NCBI GenBank assembly: GCA_029262035.1
Contig: JAJDAE010000122.1
Coordinates: 1-48,777 of the forward strand
Reading direction: 5' to 3'
Source: Candidatus Zhuqueibacterota bacterium
GTDB lineage: Bacteria > Zhuqueibacterota > Zhuqueibacteria > Oceanimicrobiales > Oceanimicrobiaceae
DNA: 48,777 bases
The position numbers were made by a program, and so were the translations under genes. The notes beneath the pieces are model-generated. The model saw nothing but the letters and a program-made list of their open reading frames with translations. It did no database searches and was not told the origin of the DNA. Shown here piece after piece: positions 17,811 to 21,317 of this stretch (positions within the stretch are counted from its first letter, which is position 1; each line of letters begins with the position of its first letter).

Positions 17811-17949
17811 AAAACTCAATCGGGTTCCGGGAACAAACATTTAAATACCATTTACGATCAACCAACTTTACACCACTTTACCAACTAACCGTTGACAAGC
17901 TACCCATTCTTTTTTCAATTTTGGGACGGTTCTTGGACTTGCAACTATT

Positions 17950-18567
17950 CTATTCTTCTTCGCCAACCAATTTTTTCACCACCCTGGTAAACTTTTCACC
18001 CATCGTATCACGGTTATGCCAACCGATGTTAAAGGTAATCATTTTTTCCGGCTCATCTTCTTTTAGCCTCTTTATGGCATCCATTATCTCATGACCCATT
18101 CTAACCTTCTTGGCGAGTCTTTCCTTTGAGAGCGGGCCTCTGTTGGTCATGTTATGGATCAAATATTCCTCTTCTCCAAGAAGGCCAATCCAAGCCACCA
18201 TATTAATTTCGGGCGGAAATTCTTTTAAAATATGTGCTTGTTTGGCTGCATTCAGTTCCATAAATGCAAATTTCTCACCGTTTCCAAACGCGGCGACAAT
18301 GTCTCCTAAGCTGTATCCATACTGGTAGCCATTGTTTTCGTGCACACCAATAAGCTCGTTTGCCTCCAGCATTTGTTTAAATTCGTTGCTGTTCAGGCAA
18401 GTTTTATTTTCTACTTTCGGATCTCTCGGGGGTCTATTTGTGGTCATGAAAATAGACGGTATATGAAAATTAAAATTCTCCTTTGCCTTTTCCTGAAGGA
18501 AGTCTTTCCCTCCACCATCTGGACCCGTTACTCCTATCACTATTTTTTCATTTTTCATTAATTTCAT
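17950..18567 (-). CDS. Guanylate-kinase-like protein with altered P-loop
   Basis: At 205 residues this has the length of guanylate kinase and aligns by eye along all of it. The P-loop is GPDGGGKD (15-22), the GMP-binding segment starts MTTNRPPRDPKVENKT (41-56) and runs on to GVHENNGYQYGYS, and the tail has MTNRGPLSKERLAKKVRMGH, like the lid region. The P-loop differs from the consensus GPSGVGKS/T: the Ser/Thr after the lysine, which holds Mg2+, is Asp22, and the usual Tyr of the GMP site is replaced by Cys57. So it is a divergent NMP kinase-fold protein, perhaps with a changed substrate or no kinase activity. It starts 11 bases after the adenylate-kinase-like gene, in one operon. Confidence 0.72.
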   Translation of the reverse strand: MKLMKNEKIVIGVTGPDGGGKDFLQEKAKENFNFHIPSIFMTTNRPPRDPKVENKTCLNSNEFKQMLEANELIGVHENNGYQYGYSLGDIVAAFGNGEKFAFMELNAAKQAHILKEFPPEINMVAWIGLLGEEEYLIHNMTNRGPLSKERLAKKVRMGHEIMDAIKRLKEDEPEKMITFNIGWHNRDTMGEKFTRVVKKLVGEEE

Positions 18568-18578
18568 AATTAGAAAAC

Positions 18579-19994
18579 CTATTTGGACGTTCTTATTAAA
18601 TAAAGTTCCTTGGTAAAATCAAGCAAACTATTAAAAATATTGCTCTCAAAATTATAATTAGCGTCTACCATAGTTACTAAAGACTTAAGTGTTCCCTCAA
18701 TCGCATCGGAATAGCTGGTGTCAGGTTGCGATTCTGAATTGGAAGCTCCGGCATATATTATGTTAGAATGATTCAATATCGCAACGGGTGCTGTATCAGA
18801 ATAATAAACTGAAAGTCTCCGGAACAATTTTGTCAACGAAGCATCGTCCCTCCTACCCTGTGTTGAAAGCCTATTAGCCACTCTGTATAGCGTTGTGCCA
18901 GCTGAAGAGGACAAACCGACTCCGATGCGCCGCAAGTTTTTTTTCGCCTCATTCCCTGTCAAACTCCCAATTGTAGACTTTATTTTGGCAGCGGTCCCTC
19001 TCATTTTCTCGCTTCCCTCTACCATCAACCGCCTTTTTTCCTCATCATAGTTTTTGTCATCAATTCCAAACGCCTTCAATAGATTAAAATCCTCTTCCAC
19101 GAACCCGTGCATCTCGGGATTTTCGGATAACTCCAGAAATATTTCCCCCAGTTTCAGATATACTTTGAGAGCTCCTCTTGGGTCTTCAGTAATTAGTTCA
19201 GCCGTTATGCTATCAATTGGCTCAATATGAATAATCTTATGATTCAGGTTGATTCCCTTGGCTTTTAAATCTTTCATCAGACGTTTTTGTATATATGCAG
19301 CCTGATTCATAGTTCTCGGAAAAACATCAAGATCTATTGAGTTTGTTCCGTACATCAGAGACCGGGCTATTTCAATCGTCACTAGAAAACTAGTCCATTT
19401 TTCGTCTACCATAATCCCTTCTCTAACGATCGGTACGGTAGCAGCCTGTTGCGCAATATAAGGCATATATCTTTTTTCTGGTTTGTCTTTTCCTTGTGGA
19501 TAGAAAATTCCTCCGGTTCCCGTATAAATCGTGTCGGAATCGGGGTTCGCTACAATATCAAATACTTTATTCAACGATTCGTCCAAGGTTGCCGGCACTA
19601 AAGAGGCCTTTTCTTTTATTTCAATAATTTTACTTTTAGTTATATCATACTTCTCTGAAAAGATCTCATATAATTCATCCCCATTTCCATTGATTATATT
19701 CTGAACCCAGTGCATGGTTTCTGCGGTAGCCCCTTTGCCCACGCCTTGGGGTCCAATCCAGGTTTGAAGGTTAATAACATTGAAACCTCTCTCCCTGCAG
19801 ACCTCTACGATCAGAGCGATTGATCGTTCGATTTCCTTTTCTGCTAGCAGTCCTAACAAACTATTGAACTCCGCAACGCCGGCATTGCCGCTGCCTTCTA
19901 TCTCAAGCAATGGTTTTAGAGCATCGCGAATAACTTCTTCAAAGAAACTATCCACACTTTCTCTACTTTTCTCGTGAGGAAATTTAAACTCCAT
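18579..19994 (-). CDS. Enlarged adenylate-kinase-like NMP kinase with extra domains
   Basis: At 471 residues this is more than twice the length of adenylate kinase (about 215), yet the kinase landmarks appear in order: a canonical P-loop GPQGVGKG (81-88); a TG motif (158-159) and a VREGIMVDEKWTSFLVTIEI segment (190-209) like the NMP-binding helices; DLDVFPRTMNQA (221-232), matching the LDGFPRT motif; a short lid; GRRDDASLTKLFRRL (380-394), matching the RxDD motif; and VYYSDTAPV (396-404). The extra material is an N-terminal extension (1-74), an insert after the P-loop (about 92-150), a helical insert before the lid (about 270-352) and a C-terminal tail. The arginine that follows the TG motif in E. 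coli Adk (Arg36) is not evident. Function unknown. Confidence 0.72.
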   Translation of the reverse strand: MEFKFPHEKSRESVDSFFEEVIRDALKPLLEIEGSGNAGVAEFNSLLGLLAEKEIERSIALIVEVCRERGFNVINLQTWIGPQGVGKGATAETMHWVQNIINGNGDELYEIFSEKYDITKSKIIEIKEKASLVPATLDESLNKVFDIVANPDSDTIYTGTGGIFYPQGKDKPEKRYMPYIAQQAATVPIVREGIMVDEKWTSFLVTIEIARSLMYGTNSIDLDVFPRTMNQAAYIQKRLMKDLKAKGINLNHKIIHIEPIDSITAELITEDPRGALKVYLKLGEIFLELSENPEMHGFVEEDFNLLKAFGIDDKNYDEEKRRLMVEGSEKMRGTAAKIKSTIGSLTGNEAKKNLRRIGVGLSSSAGTTLYRVANRLSTQGRRDDASLTKLFRRLSVYYSDTAPVAILNHSNIIYAGASNSESQPDTSYSDAIEGTLKSLVTMVDANYNFESNIFNSLLDFTKELYLIRTSK

Positions 19995-20417
19995 ATTTTT
20001 TTCTTCCCGATCTAAATTCGAAATAGATAATTTAACCTGAATAATTCAAGAATCCGATGTCATTCAGGAGGAATCTTTTTTATAAACAGCAGATTGTACC
20101 CGAAAAAGACTCCTCCCGAGTGACAGCCTTATTTCTAATATTTGACTTCAAATTCCTGAATTTACGAATAATGCAGGTTAAAACAGCGAATGCTCACAGT
20201 GACGGGTGGAGAACGAAGTCCTGGGATGCTTCATTGTTACACCCTCTTAATCATCCCAGATTAAAAAGAAAAATTGAGGAATCCAAACCACTTTCTTCTC
20301 TTTTTTCCCATACCCAAGATCTTAAAAATAGCAATGCTTTTACTACGCTTTCTTTGAAGAAACGTAACATATTGATTTAATAATAATCACAACATTCTAA
20401 TCCGGTGGGTTCTTGGT
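19995..20417. other. Intergenic region holding a hairpin repeat
   Basis: This gap upstream of the adenylate-kinase-like gene and downstream of prmA contains a strong 24-base inverted repeat (listed separately) and a second dyad, CTGGGATG at 20221-20228 with CATCCCAG at 20252-20259. A 107-codon frame on the plus strand runs through both and looks non-coding. The kinase-pair promoter should lie at the left end. Confidence 0.6.
20058..20125. repeat. Imperfect palindromic (REP-like) hairpin element
   Basis: The left arm 20058-20081 begins TGTCATTCAGGAGG and the right arm 20102-20125 ends CCTCCCGAGTGACA. They pair over 24 positions with 20 Watson-Crick pairs, two G-U wobbles and two mismatches, around a 20-base loop. 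The TGTCATTC...GAATCTTTTT wording resembles interspersed palindromic repeats I have seen in many FCB-group genomes. That family link is from memory and not shown here. Confidence 0.65.
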
Positions 20418-21317
20418 CTAAGGTGTCGCCGCCGTATGTTGCTTACGCAGAAGCAAAGCAGCCCACTCTTTTTGAGTGCGCATTTCATCAATAGAAAAAA
20501 GGTTGTCTTGTTTTATTTTTTGTTTCACTTCTTCCAATTCCTCAACCAGAATTCCCGATAAAATCAAAAAGCCATCCCGGGTCAAAAAGTTGTTGAACTT
20601 TTCGAAATATTTGAAAATAATATTTTTCGTGATGTTTGCCAGCACGACGTCAAAACCGGTTCGTCGCAGTCCAATGGTATCCGGGTCGGCGACCTGCAAT
20701 CTTAAATTGGTGACACCGAGGTTACGGCTCACATTTTCCTCAGCCGCTTCAATCGCCACCGGGTCATTGTCGAAGGCTACAACTTCTTCTGCGCCCAGCT
20801 TGGTTGCGGCAATTGCCAGAATACCGGTGCCAGTGCCAACATCTAACACCCGACTGCCGGAGACAAAATTATCTTCGAGTAATTGTAAAATCAGTTGCGT
20901 CGTTTCATGGCTGCCGGTGCCAAATGCCTGTTTGGGATCAATTTCAATTACAAATTTATTTACGGGGAATTCCAATTTCTCCCAGGTCGGTTTCACCATA
21001 AATTGTTTAGAAACAACAATTGGTTTAAAGTGTTTTTTCCACTCAGCATTCCAATCCAGCTCCATAACATCATTGATTTTACAAGTGGCCGGCTCACTCA
21101 AAACACCAAGCTCCTTTAATTCTTTGAGGTAGCTATTGGTCTGCTCCGCAATAATTTCTTTTTCGACTCCAGAAAAATAAGCAACCACTTCCCCGTTTAC
21201 CTGCTGACAGCCCTCGCTACCCAACTCAAATAAAAAATTAAGGATGGCTTCTTCCGAAGCTTCCGTTATAGGAATTCTAACTTCATACCACTTTTTCGTT
21301 GTTGTATTATTTGTCAT
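20418..21317 (-). CDS. prmA: Ribosomal protein L11 methyltransferase
   Basis: This 299-residue SAM-dependent methyltransferase trimethylates ribosomal protein L11 at several lysines and its N-terminus. The N-terminal substrate-recognition domain (about 1-110) contains WNAEWKKHFKPIVVSKQFMV. The linker and catalytic domain show IDPKQAFGTGSHETTQL, the SAM-binding glycine motif VLDVGTGTGILAIAATKLGA, the acidic VVAFDNDPVAIEAA and the NPPF-like motif VVLANITKNI, all typical of PrmA. The start overlaps the end of the upstream M28-type peptidase by 11 bases. It uses SAM of the kind made by metK elsewhere in the window. Confidence 0.96.
   Translation of the reverse strand: MTNNTTTKKWYEVRIPITEASEEAILNFLFELGSEGCQQVNGEVVAYFSGVEKEIIAEQTNSYLKELKELGVLSEPATCKINDVMELDWNAEWKKHFKPIVVSKQFMVKPTWEKLEFPVNKFVIEIDPKQAFGTGSHETTQLILQLLEDNFVSGSRVLDVGTGTGILAIAATKLGAEEVVAFDNDPVAIEAAEENVSRNLGVTNLRLQVADPDTIGLRRTGFDVVLANITKNIIFKYFEKFNNFLTRDGFLILSGILVEELEEVKQKIKQDNLFSIDEMRTQKEWAALLLRKQHTAATP

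Follow-up and report, generated by a model that had tools for sequence, protein, structure and literature searches.

A pair of divergent NMP-kinase-like genes at a variable gene junction in Candidatus Zhuqueibacterota

Known nucleotide kinases and their likeness to the two proteins

NMP kinases belong to the most constrained enzymes known, and changes of acceptor specificity at the level of a family are rare. In adenylate kinase (Adk), Arg88 positions AMP, and the adenine N6 is read by Gln92 together with the main-chain oxygen of Gly85 (PMC3369945); Arg36 is one of the conserved active-site arginines of the enzyme (PMC4325324). In yeast guanylate kinase, Tyr51, Tyr79, Arg39 and Arg42 hold the phosphate of GMP, and the guanine is coordinated by Ser35, Glu70 and Asp101 (PMC4325336).

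Here we describe two adjacent genes, encoding an ADK-like and a GUK-like protein, in a 48,777-nucleotide window that comprises all of contig C27 in a Candidatus Zhuqueibacterota genome (5.3 Mb; 96% complete). An open frame of 471 codons at the local base composition has a chance probability of 7.5e-16, and one of 205 codons of 2.6e-7; both frames are therefore taken as genes, that of the ADK-like protein starting with ATG. Their features are collected in Table 1.

The ADK-like protein shares with adenylate kinase (PF00406, TIGR01351, NF001381) a P-loop, a D-x-FPRT-xx-Q-A segment and an R-x-DD...R...T-A-P segment, in the same order. It differs in its length (471 residues instead of about 215, with an N-terminal extension, two inserts and a C-terminal tail), in the lack of Arg36, in a P-loop that reads GKG-A, and in scores under both the Pfam and the NCBIfam cut-offs. 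Two kinds of over-long Adk invite comparison. Tandem Adk-Adk proteins, found in this genome (contig C104) and others of the class, also have adenylate kinase homology in frames of about 390–570 aa, but consist of two complete Adk domains, whereas the ADK-like protein is one domain with inserts. The 'adenylate kinase' of the Bacteroidota jumbo phage pT24, from Tenacibaculum, is likewise over-long (389 aa), but is a canonical short-LID Adk with a C-terminal exonuclease-like segment, and does not match the inserts of the ADK-like protein; it was rejected as a relative of those inserts and regarded as an unrelated fusion. That segment of the phage protein (L065:21589–22758) starts MLDIETLG, like a DEDD-type 3'-5' exonuclease.

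The GUK-like protein aligns with guanylate kinases (PF00625, TIGR03263, PHROG 1815) over its whole length, scoring 57.3 bits over 160 residues against at most 17.7 bits for shuffled sequences (n=2000, P-loop kept). Its PDB matches are guanylate kinases, with E 7e-5 for entry 4f4j and E 7e-5 to 2e-4 for the yeast enzyme, and it matches the phage family PHROG 1815 with E 1.4e-9. Scores against the curated models lie under their cut-offs (19.2 versus 25.2 bits for Pfam PF00625; 29.6 versus 160.45 for TIGR03263). Of the residues that hold the GMP phosphate, Arg39, Arg42 and Tyr79 correspond to R45, R48 and Y83, while Tyr51 falls in a two-residue deletion; a LID arginine is kept. All three guanine contacts are changed, Ser35, Glu70 and Asp101 being replaced by M41, G74 and N106, so the acceptor of this protein is unlikely to be GMP. 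MAGUK guanylate-kinase-like domains show the same combination of altered guanine-reading and retained phosphate-reading residues, but the present protein is bacterial, largely keeps its P-loop and has no PDZ or SH3 partners. Its P-loop ends in GKDF instead of GK(S/T). Phosphomevalonate kinase and the dNMP kinase of T4 also have an Asp at this position. As curated cut-offs are not reached and specific acceptor residues are missing or changed, we do not grant either protein membership as Adk or Gmk proper.

Table 1. Coordinates of the gene pair, its sequence features and its surroundings in the window
Feature	Position	Strand	Residues	Remarks
Lineage-specific segment between sigma-factor gene and prmA	17811..20417	.		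Pair absent here in six family members
GUK-like protein gene	17950..18567	-	205 aa	Starts 11 bp past the stop codon of the ADK-like gene
R45..R48	18424..18435	-	45–48	Counterparts of GMP-phosphate arginines R39, R42
GUK-like P-loop GPDGGGKD	18502..18525	-	15–22	Asp for usual Ser/Thr after Lys
ADK-like protein gene	18579..19994	-	471 aa	ATG start
C-terminal tail	18582..18707	-	430–471	
GRRDD...RR...YYSDTAP	18786..18857	-	380–403	Counterparts of R156, D158, D159, R167, T175
LID-position insert, about 100 residues	18867..19172	-	275–376	Net positive charge; no family match
DVFPRTMNQ	19302..19328	-	223–231	D223, R227, Q231 = D84, R88, Q92
TG	19518..19523	-	158–159	Motif of the original prediction; probably within insert
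LVP	19593..19601	-	132–134	Counterpart of canonical LVP/LVT
NGNGDEL	19671..19691	-	102–108	Preferred STGDMLR counterpart; Arg36 position = Y109
ADK-like P-loop GPQGVGKG	19731..19754	-	81–88	K87 = Lys13 of E. coli Adk
N-terminal extension	19767..19994	-	1–76	Predicted to be helical; matches no family
REP-like palindrome, about 22-bp stem	20057..20127	.		Upstream of ADK-like gene; z -3.8

Homology, anatomy and active site of the ADK-like protein

The original prediction had placed adenylate kinase landmarks, in order, across the 471 residues, and the core-block homology bears this out in part. A profile built from 30 adenylate kinases (28 from other genomes of the phylum and the genome's own two) matches the protein in three ordered core blocks at 19.3 bits, against a maximum of 11.3 bits for 2000 shuffled versions with the P-loop fixed in position. 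The NCBIfam adenylate kinase model NF001381 gives 37.9 bits (E 1.5e-9), under its curated cut-off of 187 bits. The proposed search with Pfam ADK (PF00406) gives a match from about residues 189–191 on, at 17.5 bits and thus under the cut-off of 26.8. In the aligned core, about 25% of the residues are identical to those of the phylum's Adks. Judged by these comparisons, the relationship to adenylate kinase is genuine but distant.

AlphaFold models are of low confidence when the protein is given alone, without an alignment (pLDDT 35.4), and reach 50.9 when 24 canonical Adks are supplied as the alignment, with about 55–70 over the greater part of the core and with inserts that are modelled as rich in helices. 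The best Foldseek matches are adenylate kinases (E 1.5e-4; TM 0.26 by query length), a result biased by the Adk input alignment and to that extent circular.

The landmarks listed earlier stand for the P-loop, DVFPRT (223–228), GRRDD (380–384) and YYSDTAP (397–403); the exception is the TG that had been taken as equivalent to STGD. MAFFT, HMMER and hhalign align STGD...LVP with N104-G105-D106 and L132-V-P134, a register that has the canonical spacing from the P-loop. When the competing segment was deleted in turn, the 104–106 register scored 26.9 bits and the 158–159 register 17.7. Pfam ADK and TIGR01351 match the protein only from 189–191 on, which is compatible with the 158–159 register too. 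N104-G105-D106 is thus the preferred counterpart, and T158-G159 is probably not the STGD motif. The choice of register decides where the first insert lies, either at about 140–205 (preferred) or at about 100–152. It is some 55–65 residues long and lies in or after the NMP-binding region; in the preferred register it adds about 65 residues before the FPRT strand. In that register the N-terminal extension, two inserts and C-terminal tail described earlier are all present, with the first insert shifted in place. Searched against Pfam and, where tried, as segments alone against the PDB, these inserts and extensions gave no convincing match.

Counterparts are given here by E. coli Adk residue numbers. 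Lys13, Asp84, Arg88 and Gln92 all have identical counterparts (Table 1), Arg156, Asp158 and Asp159 correspond to R381, D383 and D384, and Arg167 to R392 or R393, a shift of one residue being possible. An arginine after STGDM had been described as not evident, and there is indeed no counterpart of Arg36 in either register, the position being occupied by Y109 in the preferred one and by I163 in the other. Thr15 of the P-loop is replaced by Ala (GKG-A instead of GKG-T). For the LID arginines Arg119 and Arg123, counterparts are not confidently identifiable; only R274 lies nearby, where the LID-position insert begins. The reading of GFPR as VFPR is also correct as an observation. It is weak as a sign of re-tooling, since the Arg88 and Gln92 positions are kept and Gly85 contacts adenine through its main-chain oxygen, so that the substitution need not abolish AMP reading. 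Residue retention is read from a single sequence of each kinase, no homologue of either having been found.

Genomic setting and distribution of the pair

Within the family, the order nnrE/D, sigma factor, prmA, SprA forms a conserved block, which in several members also includes an M28 peptidase gene. In three relatives (G003, G005 and G006) prmA adjoins the sigma-factor gene without an intervening gene; in three others (G001, G002 and G004) a Ppx/GppA gene occupies the interval. The kinase pair is found there only in the present genome among the seven family members compared. The junction is a variable slot across the family (window 17811–20417; L013–L018 and L027–L030). The window also carries SprA, T9SS sorting tails and LptF/G genes, which suggest a place in the Fibrobacterota-Chlorobiota-Bacteroidota group. 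Elsewhere the genome encodes an Adk of canonical type (211 aa), a tandem Adk of 389 aa and a Gmk that is likewise canonical.

Between the pair and prmA lies the strong REP-like palindrome TGTCATTCAGGAGGAATCTTTTT...AAAAAGACTCCTCCCGAGTGACA. A candidate pair of flanking direct repeats (17928–17939 and 20408–20419) was rejected, its match of 11/12 being no better than that of other chance pairs.

Whole-genome searches found neither kinase gene in 82 genomes of the phylum, nor in 388 genomes that include about 300 spread over Bacteria; genome searches of two further phyla likewise lacked the ADK-like gene. With tblastn, phage (50,697 records) and plasmid records gave no relative beyond weak Gmk similarity. 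Peptide-pattern scans covering the genomes of 85,000 species, and IMG/VR as well, gave no match; this kind of search needs exact identity over 7 or 8 residues and so misses distant relatives. Weak matches of the GUK-like protein in G449, G062 and G111 proved to be canonical Gmk genes, two of which adjoin yicC-like genes. The pair is an orphan within the limits of the genomes, phage and plasmid records and pattern scans covered. The conserved neighbourhood hoped for from a survey of homologues did not emerge, since no second instance of the pair was found. No described family matching the ADK-like protein was found in the literature, and the earlier statement to that effect is supported within the Pfam, NCBIfam, PHROG and PADLOC libraries.

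Codon usage is mildly atypical in the ADK-like gene and ordinary in the GUK-like gene; being so close to ordinary, it leaves the case for transfer to be made from distribution and not from composition. On that basis the pair was probably gained in the present lineage, most likely by transfer.

Possible function and rival explanations

We tentatively favour, at just short of even confidence, a reading of the pair as a lineage-specific, probably horizontally acquired cassette whose two products are divergent P-loop phosphotransferases that have the NMP-kinase fold and act on altered acceptors. Their mechanism, as far as the retained residues indicate, is most likely like that of an NMP kinase. 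The ADK-like protein would bind ATP through its normal P-loop and the LID and core arginines and would move the gamma-phosphate onto an adenine-type or modified nucleotide, seated where the acceptor and LID parts are altered and enlarged. Its neighbour, the GUK-like protein, would still grip the phosphate of its acceptor (R45, R48, Y83) but would no longer read guanine. As the two genes are adjacent and co-oriented, both kinases probably belong to a single pathway that acts on a non-standard (deoxy)nucleotide. We infer that the pair is catalytically active, shares a pathway and was acquired by transfer; activity is not assured, given the uncertain Arg119 and Arg123, the change of Thr15 to Ala, and the Asp in place of Ser/Thr in the GUK-like P-loop. 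The earlier suggestion that an NMP kinase has been re-tooled, with a different nucleotide or partner, agrees with the retention of catalytic and ATP-side residues alongside the absence of Arg36, and gains from the housekeeping Adk and Gmk encoded elsewhere and the loss of three guanine-reading residues in the neighbour. A signalling or new-system role, also raised by the original prediction, drew no support, and no second instance of the pair was found that would show conserved linkage. It is quite unlikely, though conceivable, that the pair is the first example seen of a two-enzyme pathway in which an enlarged Adk derivative and a GUK derivative, in succession or together, phosphorylate some nucleotide outside the canonical set, be it a modified base, a signalling nucleotide or a cofactor.

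The changed specificity residues could instead mean that catalysis has been given up altogether, both proteins serving as phospho-ligand-binding or scaffold domains like those of MAGUK proteins. The residue pattern of the GUK-like protein does resemble the change from GK enzyme to GK domain (PMC4325336), and large segments of the ADK-like protein have no family match. We nevertheless consider this unlikely: the invariant P-loop lysine is kept in both proteins, the ADK-like core retains D223, R227, Q231, R381, D383 and D384, and no partner gene is visible. Retention of the Arg88, Gln92 and Asp84 counterparts would equally suit an ordinary AMP kinase isoform that has drifted and gained insertions, accompanied by a GMP kinase isoform, and tandem and extra Adks do occur in the same class. 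Such an origin is doubtful in view of the missing Arg36 in either register, the change of all three guanine contacts in the neighbour, the housekeeping copies in the genome and the low identity, about a quarter, that it shares with Adks from the phylum.

Two further explanations look to mobile elements or conflict. The match of the GUK-like protein to PHROG 1815, the variation of the sigma factor–prmA slot between species and the REP-like palindrome upstream of the pair would be expected of a remnant phage or mobile module for the metabolism of (possibly modified) deoxynucleotides, now passive chromosomal cargo. This is distinctly unlikely, as no phage or mobility genes lie close by, those genes of the window that were tested having housekeeping or surface roles, neither the 50,697 phage records nor the IMG/VR pattern scans gave a relative, and both frames are intact. 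A nucleotide-based defence or toxin–antitoxin pair would account for two small co-oriented genes of patchy distribution, but is very improbable: PADLOC gives no match at E up to 5, neither protein has an effector or nuclease domain, and the locus is not in a defence island.

Under the favoured reading of two phosphotransferases with altered acceptors, the presence of two divergent NMP kinases side by side, in a genome with the full housekeeping set, suggests a nucleotide substrate outside standard metabolism. Should that substrate come to light, the ADK-like protein would reveal how much the acceptor and LID domains can enlarge while the phosphoryl-transfer site is kept.

A separate observation concerns the genome's own tandem Adk-Adk protein (G000:C104; L003:820–1989, minus strand; 389 aa), in which the P-loop of the second half is changed, to GYPGAGRGTQ. 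Frames with two Adk domains, of about 396–572 aa, are also present in G012, G024, G033, G048 and G050, which makes the arrangement a recurrent feature of the class.
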